24,167 nucleotides of DNA from a virus. Location of the stretch: the IMG/VR virus record IMGVR_UViG_3300043420_000042, positions 1-24,167 of that record. The stretch is one strand, 5' to 3'. The notes below the pieces were generated by a model that ran no database searches, was not told where the DNA came from, and worked only from the letters and a program-made list of their open reading frames with translations. Position 1 is the stretch's first letter. Each line of letters opens with the position of its first letter. Of the stretch, positions 634-11,156 are shown in pieces. The position numbers and the translations under genes are program-made.

Positions 634-820
634 GATATTTAAGGTATTCACGAAAGGTTTGTTTGATTTCACGCTTGGTCATTCCACACCAAGCAGCTGC
701 CTGAGGCAAGTTCATTGTAGCACGAAACAAGGCATGGTGCGCTTCCGCCACATTCTCTGGTGTGGTCTTCACAACGTCACCCATAAGATAATTCCAATAG
801 CGTTCTTTATGTTCTGTCAT
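575..820 (-). CDS. Conserved small phage protein, unknown function (81 aa)
   Basis: An 81-residue, mildly acidic protein with no signal peptide or membrane segment. Its middle, around residues 38-60 (LPQAAAWCGMTKREIKQTFR), reads like a helix-turn-helix: a helix, a Gly-centred turn, then a charged second helix. A DNA-binding role is therefore possible but unproven. The ATG at 820 overlaps the end of the ATP-grasp gene by 14 bases, and its 3' end overlaps the methylase start by 59 bases, so the three genes are probably translationally coupled. I do not recognise a named family with certainty; its composition and its dense packing between two clear genes argue that it is real. Confidence 0.75.
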   Translation of the reverse strand: MTEHKERYWNYLMGDVVKTTPENVAEAHHALFRATMNLPQAAAWCGMTKREIKQTFREYLKYHAPDFEITEDSPTLSWGEK

Positions 821-1703
821 TACACCTCAACTTAGCATAGTCAAATACTTTTTGGGGAATGTTAATTCCCAATGCTCGCTCAAATCCATGAAAACCTGGA
901 GAGGAATTTGCTTCACAAATTCTATATCCATCTGGATGAAATAATAAATCTACACCAGCAATATCAAGATCAAGAACTTTTGCTACTTGGATTGCTAGCA
1001 TTTCCATTTCATCATCAACATCGTATGCTGCTCCTTCTCCTCCTCTAGAGATGTTTGCTTTGAATGATCCATCGGTGCTCTGGCGAAGCATAGCACCAAC
1101 GACCCTACCACCAATAACGATAACCCGAAGATCACGTCCCTCCGAATGTTGTACATATTCTTGAACAATCATAGATGCTTTAAAATCAATTGAAGATACT
1201 AGTTCAGATAGATCTTCAAATTCTTTAGCATTATGACACAAATAAACACCCTTACCATGTGATCCTGTAACTACTTTTAACACACATGGAAACCCTACTT
1301 GTTTTTCAACTAACTCGGCTTTACATGGAAACCGTGTAAGCATGGTTTTAGGAATAGGTAAACCAGCCTGTGCCAAGATTTGATTGGCATACATCTTATC
1401 TTTCGAAGCCTCAATAGAATTTGAGTTAGGAATGGTAGGGACATTCAATCGTTCGAATTGTCTAAGGACAGAAAGATTGAAATAACCCGTGCCGCTCCCA
1501 GTACGAGCGAGAACCACGTCAGGCAAACTAACAATATCATTACGATATCTAATGGATTTACGGTCATCTCTGGATACAATCAAATCGATTTCGTCAGCAA
1601 AGACTAAAGAAAAATCGATACCATATTTATCTGCTTCTTCGATAAATCGTTCACGTTCATACATCTCTGCAGTGAGACGATTACCTAGCATCCAGAGTTT
1701 CAT
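807..1703 (-). CDS. RimK-like ATP-grasp ligase
   Basis: Predicted ATP-dependent carboxylate-amine ligase of the RimK family. E. coli RimK adds glutamate residues to the C-terminus of ribosomal protein S6. The 298 residues match RimK's length (about 300) and motif order: SIEASKDKMYANQILAQAG (about 96-114) with PIPKT after it, the glycine-rich ATP loop KVVTGSHGKGV (143-153), EGRDLRVIVIGGRVVGAMLR (188-207), FKANISRGGEG (214-224), and the metal-binding end IAGVDLL plus CEANSSPGFHGFE (D252, E263/E264 region and N266). No inactivating loss is visible. It starts directly after the stop of the 62-residue gene and runs into the 81-residue gene. The ATP-grasp fold is sure; the substrate is not. S6 or another host translation protein, a phage protein tail, or a small peptide are all possible. 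It has no place in the T4 core, so it is accessory cargo. Confidence 0.9.
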   Translation of the reverse strand: MKLWMLGNRLTAEMYERERFIEEADKYGIDFSLVFADEIDLIVSRDDRKSIRYRNDIVSLPDVVLARTGSGTGYFNLSVLRQFERLNVPTIPNSNSIEASKDKMYANQILAQAGLPIPKTMLTRFPCKAELVEKQVGFPCVLKVVTGSHGKGVYLCHNAKEFEDLSELVSSIDFKASMIVQEYVQHSEGRDLRVIVIGGRVVGAMLRQSTDGSFKANISRGGEGAAYDVDDEMEMLAIQVAKVLDLDIAGVDLLFHPDGYRICEANSSPGFHGFERALGINIPQKVFDYAKLRCNDRT

Positions 1704-1892: not shown

Positions 1893-2836
1893 TTAAATTC
1901 ACAACTCATCATAATTTCAGTAAGACATGCCAACAGGTTAATCTCCTGATCAGCAACGAAAGCAATCTGATATTGATACTTAGCAATGATCAAAACTGCT
2001 TCTGGAATAGAGGCACTCTTAAGATGATCATAGAGAACATCATAGAGTTTCCTCATTACCATTGTAGGATCATTGTTAATATTGTCAACTACCCACTTAC
2101 GGACGACAGTAAACTCTCTATTCTTCAAAGAAGAAATTAGAGAGTCTAAGTTAATGTCAGCAACATCAACTAGAATAGCAGAATTAATACCACCAGAAGC
2201 AGCAAAGCGTTGACACTCATTGATCAAACGGCGCCAGTCTGGATAGTAACGCTTAACAACCTTTGCTAGAACTTTATCTTCGTAAGATACTTCTTGACCA
2301 TCAAGAATTTCTTTCAGACGAGTGAAGAACTGACCTTGTAACTGTACAGACTCTTCACTGCCGATCTTAAAATCAATAACCGTACAACGAGAATGTAGAG
2401 GGTCAATAATTTTGTTTGGGAAGTTACAAGTGAAGATAAAACGACAGTTGCTGTGAAACTCTTCCACGGCGGTCCTGAGTGACAGTTGAACGTCGTTAGT
2501 GGTGTTGTCTGCCTCATCGATGATGACGACCTTGTGGGCGGCGCCAGAGGTCAGTGAGACGGTCGTAGCGAACTGCCTGACCTTGTTCCTCACCGTGTCT
2601 AGGAAGCGTCCCTCATCCGAACCATTAATGACAATGTAGGATGCTCCGATCTCATCACATACCGCTTTGGCAACTGTGGTCTTTCCCACACCAGCAGAAC
2701 CACAAAGGAGAAGATTAGGGATCTCTTTCTGTTCAATAAATCCTTTAAAGGAGTTTTTAATATTCACTGGAAGGATACAGTCCTCAAGAGTATGAGGACG
2801 ATATTCTTCCACCCACAAAAATTTCTTATTCATCAA
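1889..2836 (-). CDS. 44: Clamp loader large subunit gp44 (AAA+ ATPase)
   Basis: ATPase subunit of the sliding-clamp loader, which opens and loads the gp45 ring on primer-template DNA for replication and late transcription. The 315 residues compare with 319 in T4. Visible motifs: Walker A GSAGVGKT (46-53), Walker B VVIIDEAD (103-110), sensor 1 FTCN (135-138), the RFC-type SRC arginine-finger motif (149-151) and a sensor-2-like PDWRRLIN (199-206). The ATG overlaps the gp45 stop (ATGA). T4 gp44 works as a tetramer with one gp62; gp62 does not follow here and presumably lies beyond the left edge. The first two codons are both ATG, so the start may be either. Confidence 0.97.
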   Translation of the reverse strand: MMNKKFLWVEEYRPHTLEDCILPVNIKNSFKGFIEQKEIPNLLLCGSAGVGKTTVAKAVCDEIGASYIVINGSDEGRFLDTVRNKVRQFATTVSLTSGAAHKVVIIDEADNTTNDVQLSLRTAVEEFHSNCRFIFTCNFPNKIIDPLHSRCTVIDFKIGSEESVQLQGQFFTRLKEILDGQEVSYEDKVLAKVVKRYYPDWRRLINECQRFAASGGINSAILVDVADINLDSLISSLKNREFTVVRKWVVDNINNDPTMVMRKLYDVLYDHLKSASIPEAVLIIAKYQYQIAFVADQEINLLACLTEIMMSCEFK

Positions 2837-3501
2837 GGTTCAAGAGCAATATAATAAACAAGATCGAGCTGCTGATGTTTCCATTCAGTAATCAACTTGC
2901 TGGACACTTTAACATTGTAATCCCCAGGATACAACTTAAGGTTCTCAACTTTCAAGAAAAGTTCATACTCCCCAGTAGCAGCTCCTTTGATTTCCTGTGT
3001 GTAAGCATTACCAGTATCATTCTCCTTATCACAAAGATTAAGAGTAATAGTACCATCACTGGTAGAGGCAAAAGAAAGATCTTCTAGTCCATACACACCA
3101 GATGCTTTCTGAAGTTGAACAAGATCTTCAGAAGACATAGAGAACTCCATGTCAGCACCAGGAAACTTAACGTCACGTTCTGGAGCGGACTTCAAAGTAA
3201 TCTCTGGATCACTGAAATAATATTTGGCACTACGATTGCCACCACGAATAGTGACATACTGATTGCTAGTAAAGTTAAGAACAGGATCCTGAAACAAACT
3301 AAGACCCATCAAAAATTGACTCAGATCATAAATTCCGAAAGTAAAAGGAAACTCTTCTGGACAAGTGTACTGAGCAATCATGTTTTCACCAACACTGATA
3401 GTCTTCAGTACACTTCCTTCACGAATCAAAATAGAACCATTGATAGTAGAAAAGTTCTTAAGAACTGAATTCGTTTGGGGAGATAGTGTAAATTGACTCA
3501 T
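2833..3501 (-). CDS. 45: Sliding clamp gp45 (DNA polymerase processivity factor)
   Basis: Trimeric ring clamp that tethers the DNA polymerase to the template and, in T4, activates late promoters together with gp55 and gp33. The 222 residues compare with 228 in T4. It is recognised by its overall beta-rich sequence, the acidic low-charge N-terminal domain (FTLSPQTNSVLKNFSTINGS), the C-terminal YYIALEP resembling the T4 clamp ending, and its place directly before gp44. The start overlaps the stop of the DUF3310-like gene by 4 bases. Because gp45 couples replication to late transcription, the late promoters in the right half of this window are likely targets. Confidence 0.93.
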   Translation of the reverse strand: MSQFTLSPQTNSVLKNFSTINGSILIREGSVLKTISVGENMIAQYTCPEEFPFTFGIYDLSQFLMGLSLFQDPVLNFTSNQYVTIRGGNRSAKYYFSDPEITLKSAPERDVKFPGADMEFSMSSEDLVQLQKASGVYGLEDLSFASTSDGTITLNLCDKENDTGNAYTQEIKGAATGEYELFLKVENLKLYPGDYNVKVSSKLITEWKHQQLDLVYYIALEP

Positions 3502-3821
3502 CGATTGTATTCCTCAGTATTTTTAGACTTGTCGGAGAAGTGAAGAAGCAGCAAGCAGTAGTGAATTGCTTTGAGAATATCACCACGAGCAGTGCCCTTC
3601 TTGTCATATCGAGACAAGTATTTGATAGCATTAGATCGAGTGAATGGTTCAGCATCGCCAACCGATTCAATAAGATCTAGGGTTTGGATCTTGTTATCAC
3701 CAGCAGAATAATGCTGGTTGTACGTGGAACCAATATAATCACGAACCTCATTCAAGAGGTTTTCTTCATTGTACTTCCAATTCATAATATCATTCAGAAA
3801 AGATGGTTTCCAATTGATCAT
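3498..3821 (-). CDS. DUF3310-like small phage protein
   Basis: A 107-residue protein with the pattern of the DUF3310 family (phage proteins of unknown biochemical role): an HY dipeptide (residues 37-38), then IQTLDLIES (45-53), then NAIKYLSRYDKKG (64-76) and DILKAIHYCLLLL (81-93). The family is common in phages and often lies near replication genes, as here directly before gp45. I chose the ATG at 3821, with GAG seven bases upstream, rather than an in-frame ATG at 3929. The longer version would lie almost entirely inside the preceding 56-residue gene and adds residues that do not look conserved. It overlaps that gene by 32 bases. Confidence 0.8.
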   Translation of the reverse strand: MINWKPSFLNDIMNWKYNEENLLNEVRDYIGSTYNQHYSAGDNKIQTLDLIESVGDAEPFTRSNAIKYLSRYDKKGTARGDILKAIHYCLLLLHFSDKSKNTEEYNR

Positions 3822-3960
3822 GATAGCACTCAAACAGGTTTCCGTCAACATCTTTGACATACAGTTTGAGTCCTTCACCATCAATAATTTTAACAGATCG
3901 CCCGTCTTTGAGAAGGGCGATTCTTCCACGATACCCGTGGAATTCTTCAGAAGGGAGCAT
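3790..3960 (-). CDS. Small hypothetical protein (56 aa) downstream of cobS-like gene
   Basis: A 56-residue protein starting MLPSEEFHGYRGRIALLKDG, with a predicted small beta-barrel pattern: alternating hydrophobic strands in RGRIALLKDGRSVKII, KLYVKDVDG and NLFECYHDQLETIF. The ATG at 3960 overlaps the end of the cobS-like gene by 14 bases. A longer in-frame ORF to 4053 exists but its extension lies inside cobS and is discarded. The pattern could fit an SH3- or KOW-like fold; no function can be assigned. Its overlap with both neighbours suggests one operon with the cobS-like gene and gp45. Confidence 0.65.
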   Translation of the reverse strand: MLPSEEFHGYRGRIALLKDGRSVKIIDGEGLKLYVKDVDGNLFECYHDQLETIFSE

Positions 3961-5053
3961 CAGGAACCTCCTCAGCATTAGCATCAATTTTAGTATACAA
4001 GTCCAAGAAAACTTGCTTAGTCTCATCGTCGAAACGATTGACACAAACTTCAATTGCCTTCATACGCTTACCGAAGATAGCGTAGGCACGAATGATGTGT
4101 ACCAGACGGCGGGTGCTAATCACCTCATCGATACCACCATCCTTAAAGGTCTTACGGATAATGTCTGCCCAGTTGGCAAGCTTCTCACAAAACTCACGAT
4201 CTTCCACACCATGATCAAGAGAAATACCTTCAAGAATTTTTTGTTCGGTTTTTAGTGTGGGATACTCTTGCTCGAAAGTGAGAGCAAAACGCTCAAGGAA
4301 TGCTTCGTTCAGAACATTAGTGCCGATAAAGCGACCGTCATCAGAACCCTTACCCTTGGTGTTGGCAGTAGCAACTACAGTAAACCCAGGGGCAGGTTTC
4401 ACGTAGCGACCAGTCTTCTTAAGGAAGACTCCCTTGCCTTCTAGAATGGACTGAAGACAGAGGATCTTGTTAGAAGCGAGGTCGATCTCGTCAAGGAGAA
4501 GGACTGCTCCTCGTTCGAGTGCTTCAATAACGGGACCGTTATGCCATGAAGTATTCCCATCAACAAGCCTAAAACCACCGATAAGGTCATCTTCATCAGT
4601 CTCAATAGTAATGTTTACACGAATCAATTCTCGCTTCAGTTGAGCACATGCTTGCTCAACAGAGAAAGTCTTACCGTTACCAGAAAGACCAGTGATGAAT
4701 ACAGGATAAAAGATCTTGGAAGAAAGAATTTTCTTCACATCAGAAAAGTTCCCGAACGGGACAAAAGTAACATCTTTACTAGGAACTAGACTAGTTTGTT
4801 CCTGTTCGGGAACAGCAGGATAACCAGCAGGAGCGTTGTAAGTTTGTTCCAGTTTTTCCTGAACCGTCAGATTCCAAGTGCCACGCTTCACATAAAAATC
4901 ACGGAGACGTTTTGTGGCGGTAGCGTAAGTGATACCAAAAGTATCACATGCTACCTGAACCATTTGAGTGTTAATATCATCTCCGAATTGCTCGGACAAA
5001 TAAGCAGTCAGTTGCTCGGTAGTAACTTCAGACTTACGGGGCATTGGGGTCAT
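3947..5053 (-). CDS. cobS: CobS-like AAA+ ATPase (MoxR/BchI type)
   Basis: AAA+ ATPase of the CobS type. In aerobic B12 synthesis CobS works with CobT as the motor for cobalt insertion by CobN. The 368 residues show Walker A GLSGNGKT (122-129), DDLIGGFRL (155-163), Walker B VLLLDEID (184-191), sensor 1 ATANT (228-232), the LNEAFLERF arginine-finger region (248-256) and STRRL sensor 2 near residue 308. The first 55 residues are helical and resemble a winged or helix-turn-helix domain, which cellular CobS N-termini do not obviously need. T4-like cyanophages commonly carry this gene and it is often listed as a B12 auxiliary gene. The gene just upstream encodes a VWA/HExxH protein, so the pair could equally be a remodelling ATPase with its VWA partner. 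There is no strong ribosome site; ATG codons stand at 5053 and 5044. A GC-rich hairpin region precedes it. Confidence 0.88.
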   Translation of the reverse strand: MTPMPRKSEVTTEQLTAYLSEQFGDDINTQMVQVACDTFGITYATATKRLRDFYVKRGTWNLTVQEKLEQTYNAPAGYPAVPEQEQTSLVPSKDVTFVPFGNFSDVKKILSSKIFYPVFITGLSGNGKTFSVEQACAQLKRELIRVNITIETDEDDLIGGFRLVDGNTSWHNGPVIEALERGAVLLLDEIDLASNKILCLQSILEGKGVFLKKTGRYVKPAPGFTVVATANTKGKGSDDGRFIGTNVLNEAFLERFALTFEQEYPTLKTEQKILEGISLDHGVEDREFCEKLANWADIIRKTFKDGGIDEVISTRRLVHIIRAYAIFGKRMKAIEVCVNRFDDETKQVFLDLYTKIDANAEEVPDAPF

Positions 5054-5074
5054 TTCGTTGATGTACTCAGTATA

Positions 5075-5102
5075 GGGGTGAAACCACCCCAGAACGGGGT
5101 GG
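5075..5102 (-). promoter_or_regulatory. Mutually exclusive hairpins in the cobS-like leader
   Basis: Read in the transcript direction there are three segments: A, CCACCCC (5102-5096); B, GGGGTGG (5090-5084); C, CACCCC (5080-5075). A pairs with B over 7 bp with a GTTCT loop, and B pairs with C over 6 bp with a GTTT loop; the two hairpins cannot coexist. The segment lies 20 bases after the stop of the VWA gene and 22 bases before the cobS-like ATG. The codons after that ATG contain ACCCC, which could also pair with GGGGT. No long T-run follows, so it looks more like an attenuator-type or translational control element, or an RNA processing stem, than a standard terminator. The pairing is visible; the role is inferred. 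Confidence 0.5.
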
Positions 5103-5122
5103 GGTAGACAGTTTTGGAATTG

Positions 5123-7297
5123 TCACGACACGAGCGTGGCAAAAGATGTAAGGATCTTCTTATTCACAGTTTTGTTCTTCAGCATGTTCTTAAATGCTTT
5201 CTTGATGTCTGAAGTCTTAGCACCAGATTCTACATCAAACTCTGTGTCACAAGAAAGCGATGTCTGAGAAATAACATAGAGAGAATCATACCCAACATTT
5301 TTGTTGAACTCCCACGACTTATGCTTTCTCCACTTTTTCATCACTTCATCATAATTGTATTGTTCTTGGGTGTCACGATACAGATGACTGAAATCACTAC
5401 CAGAAGCAATTCGGAATCCAACTAGATTTACATTAGGAAAATTATCTTTGATGTTCTCAATCAGAATAGTGGTCAACCCATCCTTTCCGCTGTATCCATC
5501 ACAGTGTCGATAAACTTTCCCGATCTTACGATCACGAAGACAGCAGTTATTATTAACAGCATTCTTCCCAATGTAATCAGCACCACGAACAATGTTCATA
5601 TCAACATCATGGGTGATGCCATTTGATTCGCCGTCTGTAAGAATACAGACACTGAGTTTTTGAAGTTTGTTCTGATTAATATAAAAAGGAATTAGGGTCT
5701 TGAGTGTAATGATGCTCTCGTTCAAAGGAGTTCCAGAAAGATCAACACCAGCAGGTACAGTATAGTACCCAGAAGTGTGTACAGTATTATCCATATAAGA
5801 AGCGGTACGCCAAAGATTTTTAGCAGACTCTTCGAACTGCTTGCTATTACAACGAGAAGTCAAAAAGTTAAGAAGATGAAAACGATTGGTAACAGTAATC
5901 ATTCCGTGGGAAGCAATATAATTTCGATCATCTACTTCTTCATCACCACTAGATTCGACAAAACGGTTAGACCATTCGTAAGTAAAAGCATACACCTCAA
6001 AGGGAATCTGTACTTTACGACAGAACCAACAAAGATTAAGAAGTTGCTTGACAGTATCCATCAAAACATTGCTCATGGAACCAGACCAGTCAAGGATAAA
6101 AATCATCCCATGATTCTTACCATCAGGAAGAACAGTTACTTTTTTAAACAGATCATCATTATACTTAAAAGTATGAAGTTTGCTTGTATCAAGAACACCA
6201 GTCTTAGATTGTCCTGCCCTAGCATAAGCATCGGCAGACTTACGACATTCAAATTCTTTAACAAGATAATTTACTTCTTTTTGTGCTTGTTTTTTAAATT
6301 CTAGATAAGATTCATCAACACTTTGGAAGACATCATCCCAATAAGTTCTACGTTCAGATTCAAGATTATTATAGTAATTAGCAATGTAGGGGATAATTAC
6401 ATCATGATCAACAATAACTTGTTCGAGATTTACTTCAGGTACTTCAATGTAAACAGGTTCTTGTGACCAGTTGCTATGGTTGTTTAGATCTTCGGTAGCA
6501 GCGTCAAATGAACGTTGAGTTTTAGAAACAGTATCACCAGCACTATCACCCCCGAGATTACCACTAAGATTATCTGGAATGTCCGAAGCAGATCCACGAT
6601 TAGAATCAGAATTATTACTATCGCCAAGATTATTTTCTTCATTGGCATTCTCGCCTTCATTGTCATTCATGTTGGCATTAGAACCAACACTAGATCCACC
6701 ACTTTGAGCAGAAGACTGTTCACTTGGAAGATCAATTTTCTCAGTTTGCTGATCGTTATTCTCCAAGAATTCAACTAGTTCTTTACAGATAGCAATGACT
6801 TCTTCAAAAGTTTCTGCGGATTCAATTTGAGGAAGAAATTTCTTTTCCCGATCTTCAAAAGGAATACAAGCATAGGCACCAATCTTGAAGTGAAGATTGA
6901 TACGATCAATTAAATTATAACGAGAAACATCTTCATCAGAAATGCCGAAGAAGTCATCATCATTAAGTTCTTGATATCCACGATAAAAGTCTTTAGCAAG
7001 ACCAGGATACTTTCGCTTCATCAACTTCTCGATACGAGCGTCTTCAACAACGTTGAGAAAATCTTTGGGGATATCTTCATCCATCCAATCATCGACAGGA
7101 GTGTAGAGAGCATGACCCACTTCATGACCGACGAGAAGATCGTACACAGTATTACTTGCTTTCTGCCACAGGGGAAGAGTCAGCACCCGACGAACAACGT
7201 CAAAGGAAGCAGTGCTGACTTTACGGTGCTCAACAATCAGGTTCTCGGTAGCGAGCAGACGAGCGAGGTTACCTTTAATTTCTTGACTGTTAGACAT
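5123..7297 (-). CDS. HExxH metallopeptidase-like and VWA protein, CobT-like
   Basis: A 724-residue two-part protein. The N-terminal part has a zinc-peptidase signature HEVGH (58-62) with a downstream NVVEDARIEK (82-91) that could give the third zinc ligand. Residues about 190-260 are a Ser/Asn/Gly/Asp-rich linker of low complexity. The C-terminal part follows the CobT arrangement: a GVLDTSKLHTFKYNDDLFKK stretch (about 367-386), then a VWA domain with the metal-site motif DWSGS (403-407) after a hydrophobic strand, and TDGES further on. CobT pairs with CobS, and the CobS-like gene comes next in the transcript, 69 bases on. The likely role is the partner of that ATPase; whether the peptidase site is active is open. 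The start at 7297 has GGA about 10 bases upstream. Confidence 0.82.
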   Translation of the reverse strand: MSNSQEIKGNLARLLATENLIVEHRKVSTASFDVVRRVLTLPLWQKASNTVYDLLVGHEVGHALYTPVDDWMDEDIPKDFLNVVEDARIEKLMKRKYPGLAKDFYRGYQELNDDDFFGISDEDVSRYNLIDRINLHFKIGAYACIPFEDREKKFLPQIESAETFEEVIAICKELVEFLENNDQQTEKIDLPSEQSSAQSGGSSVGSNANMNDNEGENANEENNLGDSNNSDSNRGSASDIPDNLSGNLGGDSAGDTVSKTQRSFDAATEDLNNHSNWSQEPVYIEVPEVNLEQVIVDHDVIIPYIANYYNNLESERRTYWDDVFQSVDESYLEFKKQAQKEVNYLVKEFECRKSADAYARAGQSKTGVLDTSKLHTFKYNDDLFKKVTVLPDGKNHGMIFILDWSGSMSNVLMDTVKQLLNLCWFCRKVQIPFEVYAFTYEWSNRFVESSGDEEVDDRNYIASHGMITVTNRFHLLNFLTSRCNSKQFEESAKNLWRTASYMDNTVHTSGYYTVPAGVDLSGTPLNESIITLKTLIPFYINQNKLQKLSVCILTDGESNGITHDVDMNIVRGADYIGKNAVNNNCCLRDRKIGKVYRHCDGYSGKDGLTTILIENIKDNFPNVNLVGFRIASGSDFSHLYRDTQEQYNYDEVMKKWRKHKSWEFNKNVGYDSLYVISQTSLSCDTEFDVESGAKTSDIKKAFKNMLKNKTVNKKILTSFATLVS

Positions 7298-7490: not shown

Positions 7491-7519
7491 TCTATAGCAC
7501 GGTCAGTCGGTTTCGGCAA
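7491..7519 (-). promoter_or_regulatory. Candidate sigma70 promoter for the CobT/CobS module
   Basis: Minus-strand TTGCCG (7519-7514), a 17-base spacer, then TATAGA (7496-7491) preceded by TGC, giving an extended -10. It lies over the 3' end of gp46 and points into the small basic ORF, the CobT-like gene and cobS. The -35 has two or three departures from consensus, so the call is moderate. Confidence 0.4.
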
Positions 7520-9233
7520 GAGACAGATTAGCAACGCTAAAGTTTTTGACCTTATCAAATTTGATAGTCCTATCAAACTTACCATCAAGATTCTCTTTAT
7601 GACTGATGACAAATACATTTGTATTATCATCAAAATTACGGAGAATCCATCCCAGTTCGCTAGTGCCACTAGCATCAAGAGACCCATCAAAGATTTCATC
7701 TAGAATGAGGAGGTTAGTATCCACGCTATTCTTGAGCTTAGCAATAGAACGCCAAGTAAGCAACAGAGCGAGATCAATACGAGCTTTCTCTCCCTCACTG
7801 AAAGATTCATATGTAAAGACATCACGATATCTTGACTTGATTGTTTCTTCGAAGTTTTCATCTAGAGTAAAGTTAACATAGAAATCCATCTTCCTGAGAT
7901 AATCTCCGATGAGTTTGTTCATCGCTGGAAGATAACGTTTAATGATTCTACTCTTAATTCCATTATCTTTTAACAACTGAGAGGCAACGCTTAAAGTATC
8001 TTTATCTTGCTTAGAAGCAATGAACCTATTCCGAATTGTTTTCTTTTCCTCAACAAACGTTGTCAGTTTTTCATACTCTGCTTTCTTACTACCAGTTGGT
8101 TTATTGAGATCTTCGATTTCACAATTGAGTTCTTCTATGCTATTAGAAAGCATTCTGATCTCATAGTTGGTTTGAGTAATGAAAGAATTAGTTTCTACAA
8201 TCTTCTCGGAAATTTCCAGGAATCTTGCTTCTCGGTCTTCTTCCAGTTTAATAGATTCTTCAAGTTCAGAAAAACCTTTCTCTAGAGTTGCTAATTCTGT
8301 GTCACTATCACTGATCTTTTTGTCACGGATATCTTGAGTGATCTCCTGTGTACATGTAGGACACACATGATTATTAATGAAGAACTCAGTCTCCTTTTTA
8401 CAGTTAGCAATCTTCTGATGAATCTTTGCTCGAAAGGTATTAAGCTGCTTAAGTTTACTTTTGTTGTCAGCAAGTTCTTTCAACTCTTCATTGAGATCAG
8501 CGACGGATAAAGTTAGATTTTCTACCTCTTGTAAGGCAGTAGATTTGTCCACATTAAGAGAAACAATTTTCATTTGCTTCTTCTCAATATCAGATTTTGT
8601 TTTCTTCTCCATCTCAAGCATATGAGATTTTTGAAGTTCAATCTTATCAGTAACCAATTTCAATTGGTACTCCAAATCTTTCAACTCATCATTGTTCTCC
8701 CGTACCTTATCTTTCAGTCTTGTATTCATAACTGAGAAGATTTGAATATCAAGAATGTCTTCAATAATTTCACGACGAGATGCTACAGGCAATCTCATGA
8801 AAGGAACAAAAGTAGATGACCCCAGTACCACAATCTGAGTAAATGACTTGTAGTTCATCTTCAGAATGTTTTGTTCTAATTGCTTTTGATAATCAACAGC
8901 ACTAGAAGATTGATCTAGCATCTGCCCGTTCTGATAAATTTCAAACAGGTTTGGTTTGATACCACGTTTAATAACGTAGTTATTCCTACCAATACTAAAC
9001 TCAACTTCGACAATACAATCTTTCTCGTTGATGCTATTAACTAGCATCGGTTTATTAATCTTTCTAAATGGTTTCCCAAATAAAGAAAAGGTAAGAGCAT
9101 CCAATACTGTGCTCTTACCTGCTCCATTTGTACCAATAATAAGATTAGTTTTATGAGATGTCAAATCGAGTTCGGTGAAATTATTTCCAGTGGAAAGAAA
9201 ATTTTTCCATCGAATCTTTTTAAAGGTGATCAT
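7503..9233 (-). CDS. 46: Recombination endonuclease subunit gp46 (Rad50/SbcC-like ATPase)
   Basis: ABC-type ATPase subunit of the gp46/gp47 nuclease that resects DNA ends for recombination-dependent replication and host DNA breakdown. The 576 residues compare with 560 in T4. Motifs in order: Walker A GTNGAGKS (34-41), a coiled-coil (about 170-290), zinc hook CPTC (291-294), a second coiled-coil (about 300-415), ABC signature FSEGEK (478-483), Walker B NLLILDEIFD (507-516) with DASG after it, and the His switch ISHK (543-546). The start overlaps the DUF3110-like gene as ATGA. Confidence 0.96.
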   Translation of the reverse strand: MITFKKIRWKNFLSTGNNFTELDLTSHKTNLIIGTNGAGKSTVLDALTFSLFGKPFRKINKPMLVNSINEKDCIVEVEFSIGRNNYVIKRGIKPNLFEIYQNGQMLDQSSSAVDYQKQLEQNILKMNYKSFTQIVVLGSSTFVPFMRLPVASRREIIEDILDIQIFSVMNTRLKDKVRENNDELKDLEYQLKLVTDKIELQKSHMLEMEKKTKSDIEKKQMKIVSLNVDKSTALQEVENLTLSVADLNEELKELADNKSKLKQLNTFRAKIHQKIANCKKETEFFINNHVCPTCTQEITQDIRDKKISDSDTELATLEKGFSELEESIKLEEDREARFLEISEKIVETNSFITQTNYEIRMLSNSIEELNCEIEDLNKPTGSKKAEYEKLTTFVEEKKTIRNRFIASKQDKDTLSVASQLLKDNGIKSRIIKRYLPAMNKLIGDYLRKMDFYVNFTLDENFEETIKSRYRDVFTYESFSEGEKARIDLALLLTWRSIAKLKNSVDTNLLILDEIFDGSLDASGTSELGWILRNFDDNTNVFVISHKENLDGKFDRTIKFDKVKNFSVANLSLAETD

Positions 9234-9493: not shown

Positions 9494-10539
9494 TAGGCTA
9501 CTTCACAACTCTCAATATATAGGGACCTCATTAATTTCTTAAGTTCGGTTTTATCCACAGAGAGTTCTACTTCATCCACATACTCATTGAGTAATGTCAA
9601 CGTATCCTTTACTTCAATATTAATCTCATCATCATTATCTTCTATAGAAAAGTTTTCCACAATTTTGACATCATGTACTCCACTATCGTACAGCTGATCA
9701 ATAAGTTTTTCAAATTGGTGATAATCTCTCTTCTCTTCTACAATAACTTTTACAAAAGTATCTTGATAAGTTTCTCGATCTACAACATGCTCTTTGTTTA
9801 CAACATCATTGTAGAATACTTTCTGAAAAATTTCAAAAGGATTTTTCACCCTAGTTAGTTTATTTGTAGGGGGATCATATAAATGGAATCCACGTTCATC
9901 CTTATAATCATTCCAGAACATTTGATAAGGATTGCCAAGGTAAGTGATGTTTCCTTTACTTGACTTATGATGGTAGTGACCAGAGAACACTTGCTTAAAT
10001 CGCTTGTAAACTTTCGGATCCATACCATGTTCCATCTTCATACCAGGAGTTACTTCAAACCCGTCGAGTTCAAGGTGTCCCATGACGATCTCGGCATTCG
10101 TGCTTTCAAGATGTTCAAAGGTTTCTTTTTCGTTTTCTTTGTTAATCCAGGGGACGAAACAAATCGGAGTATCCTCAATGTAAGTAGTAGTAACCCGATT
10201 GTAAACGTGTATATTCCCATATTCTTTCAATAATAATTCTGGAGAATTAATCTCATTGGTGTTCTTATAATACACACAATGGTTACCTAAGATCATGTGG
10301 ACAGTGACGCCCATCCCAGCCAAGCGATCAAAATAAGAGCGACGAATACGATTCCAAACATTAAAGTCAATGCTTTTCCTGTTGTCAAACGTATCGCCAA
10401 GATCAATGATCGTCGTGATTCCTTGTCGCTCAAGAGTTGGGAAAAAGATTTCTTCATAGAATTTCTCAAAATAATTCCAGAAGGCTAGACTACCTTTCCT
10501 TCCGTCTAAGTGTTGGTCAGTAATTAATGCTACCGTCAT
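9493..10539 (-). CDS. 47: Recombination endonuclease subunit gp47 (Mre11/SbcD-like)
   Basis: Metallophosphoesterase partner of gp46. The 348 residues compare with 339 in T4. All the metal-site motifs are present: DQH (D8, H10), GDTFDNR (48-54), GNHC (85-88), GHLEL (154-158) and SGHYHH (186-191). The C-terminal 100 residues are acidic, as expected for the region that binds the ATPase. The ATG overlaps the stop of the oxygenase gene by one base. Confidence 0.96.
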   Translation of the reverse strand: MTVALITDQHLDGRKGSLAFWNYFEKFYEEIFFPTLERQGITTIIDLGDTFDNRKSIDFNVWNRIRRSYFDRLAGMGVTVHMILGNHCVYYKNTNEINSPELLLKEYGNIHVYNRVTTTYIEDTPICFVPWINKENEKETFEHLESTNAEIVMGHLELDGFEVTPGMKMEHGMDPKVYKRFKQVFSGHYHHKSSKGNITYLGNPYQMFWNDYKDERGFHLYDPPTNKLTRVKNPFEIFQKVFYNDVVNKEHVVDRETYQDTFVKVIVEEKRDYHQFEKLIDQLYDSGVHDVKIVENFSIEDNDDEINIEVKDTLTLLNEYVDEVELSVDKTELKKLMRSLYIESCEVA

Positions 10540-11156
10540 TATCTAGTTAGTTGTAAATTAAAAGAAAAGGTTAATCTCATCTTATCTTTGTTAGAATCAT
10601 CAGTATAGATACTGTGTTGTAAGTACGGCGGGAACAGTAACATATCTCCATCGTTAACATCAGTATACCAATACGTAAAATAACATTCTCTTATTTTAGA
10701 TTCTTGTGATCCAAAAAAATCAAATGCCTTATGAAGTGGTTCACCTTGTCTATCAAAGATAGTGGGTGTAGAGTTTTTATTATAATAAACTCCAGACCAA
10801 AAAGGTTGTGCTCCCCCAGCTTTGTTTAGATGAGCATGTGGTTCTTGCCCTTGATTATCCCAATAAGCATTATACCAAAAATGTTCGAAGCTGATGTCTG
10901 TTGGAATATTAAGATCTCTAAAGCATATTTTAATACTGTTCAGTATATCTTTTTTTAGAGATGATAAAGTTTCCGAATCAATTAGTTCATCACCTTCATC
11001 AATGTTTGGAAACGTAGTCCTCACAGGAACTTGCCAGCGTTCTGGTTTTTGATCTTTCTTTTCTAGGTCTTTGAATTTATATTTCTCGTGCTGTAAAAAT
11101 CTAACCTTTATAACTGGTGTGGGGAATACGCTATAACACTTATAATTTTTAATCAC
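10539..11156 (-). CDS. Putative 2OG-Fe(II) oxygenase
   Basis: A 205-residue protein resembling the small phage/marine 2-oxoglutarate and Fe(II)-dependent oxygenases (the TIGR02466/PF13759 type). Supporting residues: an HAH motif (107-109) in EPHAHLNK, the strand SGVYYN (121-126), a GDMLLFPPYLQHSIY stretch carrying the distal His (H181), and an Arg that would hold 2-oxoglutarate (R194 in KMRLTFSFN). Such enzymes hydroxylate proteins, small molecules or bases; the substrate is unknown. The start codon is GTG, overlapping the stop of the 72-residue gene as GTGA; no upstream ATG is available in frame. It sits between late sigma factor gp55 and gp47, as part of one gene run. Confidence 0.8.
   Translation of the reverse strand: MIKNYKCYSVFPTPVIKVRFLQHEKYKFKDLEKKDQKPERWQVPVRTTFPNIDEGDELIDSETLSSLKKDILNSIKICFRDLNIPTDISFEHFWYNAYWDNQGQEPHAHLNKAGGAQPFWSGVYYNKNSTPTIFDRQGEPLHKAFDFFGSQESKIRECYFTYWYTDVNDGDMLLFPPYLQHSIYTDDSNKDKMRLTFSFNLQLTR

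Follow-up and report, generated by a model that had tools for sequence, protein, structure and literature searches.

A CobS-like AAA+ ATPase and a CobT-like protein with a putative metalloprotease domain form a conserved gene pair in cyanophages and other phages

Introduction

The core genome of cyanophages includes the gene cobS (PMC3037559). Liu et al. (2021) named cobST in many tailed viruses, the cyanophage pair included, regarded the cyanophage cobT as "mistakenly annotated as a peptidase", and proposed that host CobN is used (PMC8651126). Iyer et al. (2021) described a jumbo-phage MoxR/VWA pair with an N-terminal metallopeptidase, for which a role in virion assembly was proposed, and cited an archaeal-virus MoxR-VWA pair as required for tail assembly (PMC7824862). 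As reviewed previously, the VWA partners of MoxR-clade ATPases hold the target while the ring does the mechanical work (PMC7159879). Here, we analyzed a CobS-like gene and the adjoining gene of a 724-aa CobT-like protein in a virus record of 24,167 bases (IMG/VR record IMGVR_UViG_3300043420_000042, positions 1 to 24,167; this whole stretch is the window), the gene order of which is of the T4-like cyanophage type.

The two published readings collide at this locus, since one dismisses the peptidase label of CobT, while the other describes a peptidase-bearing MoxR/VWA machine. Moreover, it is common to class cobS among the auxiliary metabolic genes for B12. A preliminary description of the window had noted that cyanophage cobS is usually discussed as a lone B12 gene; given both of these papers, the paired arrangement is not unreported. 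The pair is real, conserved and partly known, and both halves of the idea are already in print; what is new is that the CobT branch has an apparently intact domain of the metalloprotease type, with what this implies for the reading as B12 genes. No paper uniting the intact zincin site of the cyanophage CobT-like protein with the lost site of canonical CobT was found, within an incomplete coverage of the literature. On balance, we favor a reading of the two proteins as an AAA+ protein-remodelling machine of the MoxR/CobS type, of which the CobT-like partner keeps a metalloprotease (zincin) domain.

CobT-like Protein and Its Zincin-like N-domain

Both open reading frames were located where the preliminary description had placed them, with a gap of ~70 bp:

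3947..5053, minus strand: CobS-like MoxR-clade AAA+ ATPase, 368 aa, phrog_249
5123..7297, minus strand: CobT-like zincin-VWA protein, 724 aa, phrog_459

The 724-aa protein matched phrog_459, "peptidase" (1.9e-262), and had no domain match in Pfam, NCBIfam or PADLOC. Its N-terminal domain bears HEVGH and is joined by an acidic linker to a C-terminal VWA domain, in which the metal ion-dependent adhesion site (MIDAS) is complete. The HEVGH motif, the LDTSKL region and the DxSxS site noticed earlier are all present, the last reading DWSGS (residues 403-407), and LDTSKL is the counterpart of LDTARL in a canonical CobT. The parts of the protein are as follows:

6743..7297, minus strand: N-terminal zincin-like domain, residues 1-185 (AlphaFold2 (AF2) model, predicted local distance difference test (pLDDT) 91.5, predicted template modelling score 0.87)
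7112..7126, minus strand: HEVGH motif, residues 58-62, in predicted helix 49-65
7034..7054, minus strand: NVVEDAR, residues 82-88, in predicted helix 78-96
6308..6772, minus strand: variable acidic/polar linker, about residues 176-330, from alignment blocks
5126..6115, minus strand: C-terminal VWA region, about residues 395-724
6077..6091, minus strand: MIDAS motif D403-x-S405-x-S407, with T523 and D555 also invariant

An alignment of nine divergent phages, with identities down to 22%, showed HExxH to be invariant, together with N82, V83, E85, D86 and R88 as well as the MIDAS residues D403, S405, S407, T523 and D555. The motif was also present at 179/180 further IMG/VR or genome loci, the lone exception being without its N terminus, and H58, E59, H62, N82, E85, D86 and R88 were invariant among 94 diverse N-domains (47% mean column identity). 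HExxH was never a pattern in the scans behind these sets. Two of the scan patterns held NVxED, so that the conservation of E85/D86 is partly selected in those scans, though it is unselected in the nine-phage alignment. Conservation across these three sets shows that HExxH is no chance match, and E85 (or D86) is a candidate third metal ligand of the N-domain.

The AF2 model of residues 1-185 consists of a helix, three strands, the helix carrying HEVGH and the helix carrying NVVEDAR, which is the usual zincin order. With HExxH on one helix and an acidic residue on the following one, both in the model and in the alignments, the predicted domain is gluzincin-like. The best 50 matches listed by VIA-align were overwhelmingly metallopeptidases or their homologues (zincins), led among the matches listed by selecase, jannalysin, ZMPSTE24 and BepA (Z 7-7.7), and the top four Foldseek matches were minigluzincins (prob 0.95-0.99, E 0.13-0.31). 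Nearly all of the best structural matches were, therefore, zincins, at middling scores, and it is the agreement among the matches to this predicted model, rather than the scores, that carries the argument for a zincin fold. The best-matching minigluzincins (selecase, jannalysin, abylysin) and M48 proteins (ZMPSTE24, BepA) are all metallopeptidase folds, but they share only 10-18% identity with the N-domain and are without a VWA domain or an AAA+ partner. A sequence-profile search of solved structures with the N-domain returned nothing relevant, so that no direct match showed homology to the solved CobT N-domain (21vu, 9uka); CobT chains were also absent among the fold matches listed. Taken together, the peptidase-like site suspected in the preliminary description is an invariant HExxH on an N-domain of predicted zincin fold, where Liu et al. 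had dismissed the peptidase annotation (PMC8651126).

The pair resembles the jumbo-phage pair and bacterial DUF2201 proteins (PF13203/PF09967), in which an AAA+ protein stands beside an N-terminal putative metallopeptidase with a VWA domain, and the N-domain profile is similar to the DUF2201 type (Prob 81, E 1.2e-5). Unlike DUF2201 proteins, the window protein matches neither PF13203 nor PF09967 in Pfam. The jumbo-phage example of Atu_ph07 is of the DUF2201 type, with a degraded HQxxH and another third-ligand motif, and represents a separate family. Bacterial DUF2201 proteins also adjoin AAA+ genes. At five bacterial loci (L197 and L224-L227), AAA+ genes adjoin genes for metallopeptidase-VWA proteins of the DUF2201 type or for degenerate versions of these, and the protein of L197 has HQVGH in place of HExxH.

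Relation to Canonical CobT

The pair shares with aerobic cobaltochelatase CobS/CobT the homology of both proteins, an AAA+ protein of the CbbQ/CobS clade, and the layout of N-domain, acidic linker and VWA domain. In contrast, canonical CobTs carry no HExxH at the aligned position. For example, when the canonical bacterial sequence RLAHHDVTLHLDRL...DALEDARIDALG is compared with the phage sequence LLVGHEVGHALYTP...NVVEDARIEKLM, the second motif is retained and HExxH is gone.

The window protein had no match over the cut-off of Pfam CobT or CobT_C, which none but the bridge phages passed, RHEph10 and hairong among them. In RHEph10, the protein reads HEVAH...NIVED; its match to Pfam CobT lies just over the cut-off (26.3 vs 26.1 bits), and that to CobT_C is strong (4.9e-35). 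A profile of RHEph10-type N-domains matched the cyanophage N-domain with HExxH on HExxH (Prob 98.6, E 1.1e-15), and matched canonical CobT with a score of 42.2, the best of 60 decoys reaching 19.5; a shallow Rhodobacterales set of canonical CobTs had given a weak comparison, and a wider set with decoys was then used. The window protein, accordingly, shares with CobT a homologous N-domain, through transitive profile links, and the MIDAS residues of the VWA domain.

The site is intact in 77/83 sequences of the RHEph10-type family, in a scan of which one pattern required the Glu; hairong and BUCTxx99 are among the members of this family without it. It is kept as well in Gordonia phage Hanem gp72 (HELCH..NVLED), in Vibrio phage MJW (HECYH), and in a bacterial island protein, L257 (HECGH..NCLED). 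The last is a CobT-like copy in a bacterial genome (4088-6283 of its locus) near a primase-like gene; an AAA+ gene is not apparent in the surrounding ~4 kb, and this locus may be a mobile island. Canonical cobaltochelatase CobT, which works with CobN, would be a relative that lost the metal site. As far as the sequences go, the simplest reading would be that the zincin-VWA protein is old and that its site was lost several times, once in cellular CobT. A bolder version, in which the "CobST" of phages and mobile elements would be an AAA+/VWA metalloprotease machine of ancient origin and cellular CobT an offshoot that lost its site on recruitment to CobN, is conceivable but tentative.

CobS-like AAA+ ATPase

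The CobS-like protein matched phrog_249, "porphyrin biosynthesis" (6e-142), AAA_5 (5e-19) and CbbQ_C. Its main features are the following:

4667..4690, minus strand: Walker A GLSGNGKT, residues 122-129, invariant columns
4487..4501, minus strand: Walker B LLLDE, residues 185-189, D188 and E189 invariant
4871..5020, minus strand: N-terminal winged helix-turn-helix (HTH)-like domain, residues 12-61, AF2 model

The AAA+ motif residues (Walker A/B, sensor and Arg-finger: G122-K128, D188/E189, N231, R255 and R315/R316) are all invariant. Together with the complete MIDAS of the linked partner, this bears out the AAA+ ATPase with a VWA partner of the preliminary description and places the genes among MoxR-clade AAA+/VWA pairs. 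The closest solved single-family proteins to the CobS profile by sequence were CobS, CbbQ and NorQ; midasin outscored them in the same structure search via its several AAA+ repeats. The protein scored 73.9 bits against the CobS equivalog (TIGR01650), far below the curated cut-off of 558.55, and is not a CobS by this measure. Other MoxR-clade ATPases with a VWA co-chaperone are those of CbbQ/CbbO, NorQ/NorD and RavA/ViaA, which resemble the present pair. To our knowledge, the VWA partners CbbO, NorD and ViaA have no metallopeptidase domain.

The AF2 model of the whole CobS-like protein (pLDDT 89) places the N-domain on a disordered linker. The elements of this domain (H12-23, E26-28, H29-39, H43-49, E54-56, E59-61; pLDDT about 95) follow the order of a winged HTH, in agreement with the HTH-like N terminus suggested earlier. 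Ochrobactrum phage CobS begins at the AAA+ core and lacks this domain, which, therefore, lies outside the common machine.

Pairing, Distribution and Genomic Location

The 724-aa protein has homologues in 463 phage records; compared per name group, the records with CobS homologues were equally numerous (365/365 Synechococcus, 61/61 "Cyanophage", 24/24 Prochlorococcus). Of the IMG/VR and genome loci that include 2.5 kb or more of downstream DNA, 117/118 have CobS, the match to which usually starts within a few hundred bases of the CobT-like gene and never beyond about 4 kb; P-TIM68 and S-SSM4 have a few genes in between. The check on co-occurrence called for in the preliminary description thus shows the two genes to be generally together. 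The pair is also present in Pelagibacter (SAR11) phage HTVC008M, Ochrobactrum phage OC and Stenotrophomonas phage DLP6, and the AAA+/CobT-like arrangement was seen in Rhizobium, Gordonia and Vibrio phages. A linked AAA+/VWA pair with HExxH therefore stands from the phage-specific machine proposed earlier, but it is not limited to cyanophages. "Porphyrin biosynthesis" ATPases of Staphylococcus K, Listeria and Enterococcus phages were considered and rejected as members, since the adjoining gene has neither HExxH nor MIDAS. A 189-kb contig of the Prochlorococcus single-cell genome AG-418-C09 also bears the pair, and is probably a co-captured cyanophage.

In the window, the order on the minus strand is gp47, gp46, the CobT-like gene, cobS, a DUF3310 gene, gp45 and gp44. 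The nearest named members of this replication/recombination cluster are:

7503..9233, minus strand: gp46-like recombination nuclease subunit
2833..3501, minus strand: gp45-like sliding clamp

Unrelated phages also hold the pair amid replication/recombination genes, its neighbors being gp46/gp45 in T4-like phages, DNA polymerase III alpha in RHEph10, hairong and BUCTxx99, and primase/UvsX in DLP6.

Proposed Function and Alternative Explanations

The remodelling-machine reading draws on the intact AAA+ motifs and MIDAS, the zincin-like N-domain, where HExxH is invariant and an acidic residue of the following helix is conserved, the tight linkage, the location among replication/recombination genes, and the failure to find CobN in 16 phage genomes or contigs. 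PDB entry 21vu, which contains a C-terminal piece of CobS and the CobT N-domain, suggests that the two bind and that the N-domain docks on the ring. By analogy, a phage CobS hexamer may dock the CobT-like protein via its N-domain, and the VWA domain on its flexible acidic linker may grip a target protein by way of the metal ion of the MIDAS. The target would be unfolded or reshaped at the expense of ATP, and the zincin would cut either the target or the machine itself as a switch. A phage docking domain that doubles as a protease could couple remodelling and cutting. The likely function is, in short, ATP-driven protein remodelling coupled to proteolysis, deployed with the replication genes. 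The replication/recombination neighborhoods in unrelated phages make a DNA-metabolism target in early infection likelier than a structural one, and the target is probably a host or phage DNA-metabolism protein made or present early in infection.

According to the published metabolic view, phage CobS and CobT are auxiliary metabolic genes whose products join host CobN in place of ChlI/ChlD and raise cobalamin, for instance for nucleotide synthesis (PMC8651126). The homology of both proteins to CobS and CobT, and the position of CobS as the closest single-family AAA+ structures, would fit this view, as would the presence of CobN in cyanobacteria that are without cobS/cobT (PMC9227772). The latter implies that the phage genes are not copies of host genes. 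However, no CobN (PF02514), whose presence in phages the preliminary description had asked about, turned up in the 16 phage genomes or large contigs searched, of which nine are complete records. Among the same 16, 14 encode a class I ribonucleotide reductase small subunit and none had NrdJ over the cut-off, so that nucleotide synthesis in pair-bearing phages need not use B12. Furthermore, HTVC008M bears the pair although its SAR11 host is described as B12-auxotrophic (PMC9296465), the absence of CobN in SAR11 being taken from the literature. With real chelatase CobTs lacking the invariant HExxH and the phage CobS far under the equivalog cut-off (73.9 vs 558.6 bits), a cobalt-insertion role of the pair is unlikely, the metabolic explanation has a low probability, and cyanophage cobS is probably misread as a "B12 gene".

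A chaperone of virion assembly that also processes structural proteins by proteolysis, the role proposed for the jumbo-phage pair, would follow the same three-part logic of AAA+, VWA and metallopeptidase and has a precedent in the archaeal-virus pair cited for tail assembly (PMC7824862). The capsid and tail genes of the window lie about 7-16 kb from the pair, which would also fit, but the pair sits amid replication/recombination genes in unrelated phages and the jumbo-phage protein belongs to a different family (DUF2201) with a degraded HQxxH, and we hold this explanation, too, to be rather unlikely. It seems quite improbable that the pair is a pure remodeller, in which, as in canonical CobT, the zincin fold of the N-domain would serve for docking or for binding a structural metal and would cut nothing. 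The domain is indeed kept without HExxH in canonical CobT and some phage relatives, and 21vu points to the N-domain as the CobS-docking part. Yet the catalytic-type Glu of HExxH is invariant along with both His, and plain docking or metal binding needs no Glu.

Several observations weigh against a proteolytic remodelling machine. The fold matches reached middling scores (Foldseek E 0.13 at best; Z < 8). The direct profile match between the cyanophage N-domain and canonical CobT is weak (E 0.002, score 27.7 vs a decoy best of 18.9), and the link between them depends on the bridge phages. The site is lost in hairong, BUCTxx99, L319/L320, L333 and L339, and is hence dispensable in some lineages. 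Finally, cyanobacterial hosts possess CobN (PMC9227772), and the pair might have a chelatase role there.

If the obligate partner of CobS is an active metalloprotease, the B12 reading needs revising for marine viromes, and a protein target becomes searchable in infections by cyanophages, pelagiphages and other phages. If the ancient-machine reading were true, cobS calls in viromes would be no evidence of viral B12 metabolism.

Other Features of the Window

Promoter and terminator scans of the window gave chance level only. An anti-phage or counter-defence role for the pair was weighed, and PADLOC gave no match for any window protein. The DUF3310 protein (3498-3929, minus strand) lies between CobS and gp45, in a slot labelled "nucleotide kinase" in DSL-LC02 and S-CREM1. 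A RimK-like protein (807-1703, minus strand; phrog_2599, "ribosomal protein S6 glutaminyl transferase") is encoded beside the clamp-loader genes, and a 2OG-Fe(II) oxygenase (10539-11156, minus strand; phrog_81) is flanked by gp47 and gp55, the latter a late sigma factor.

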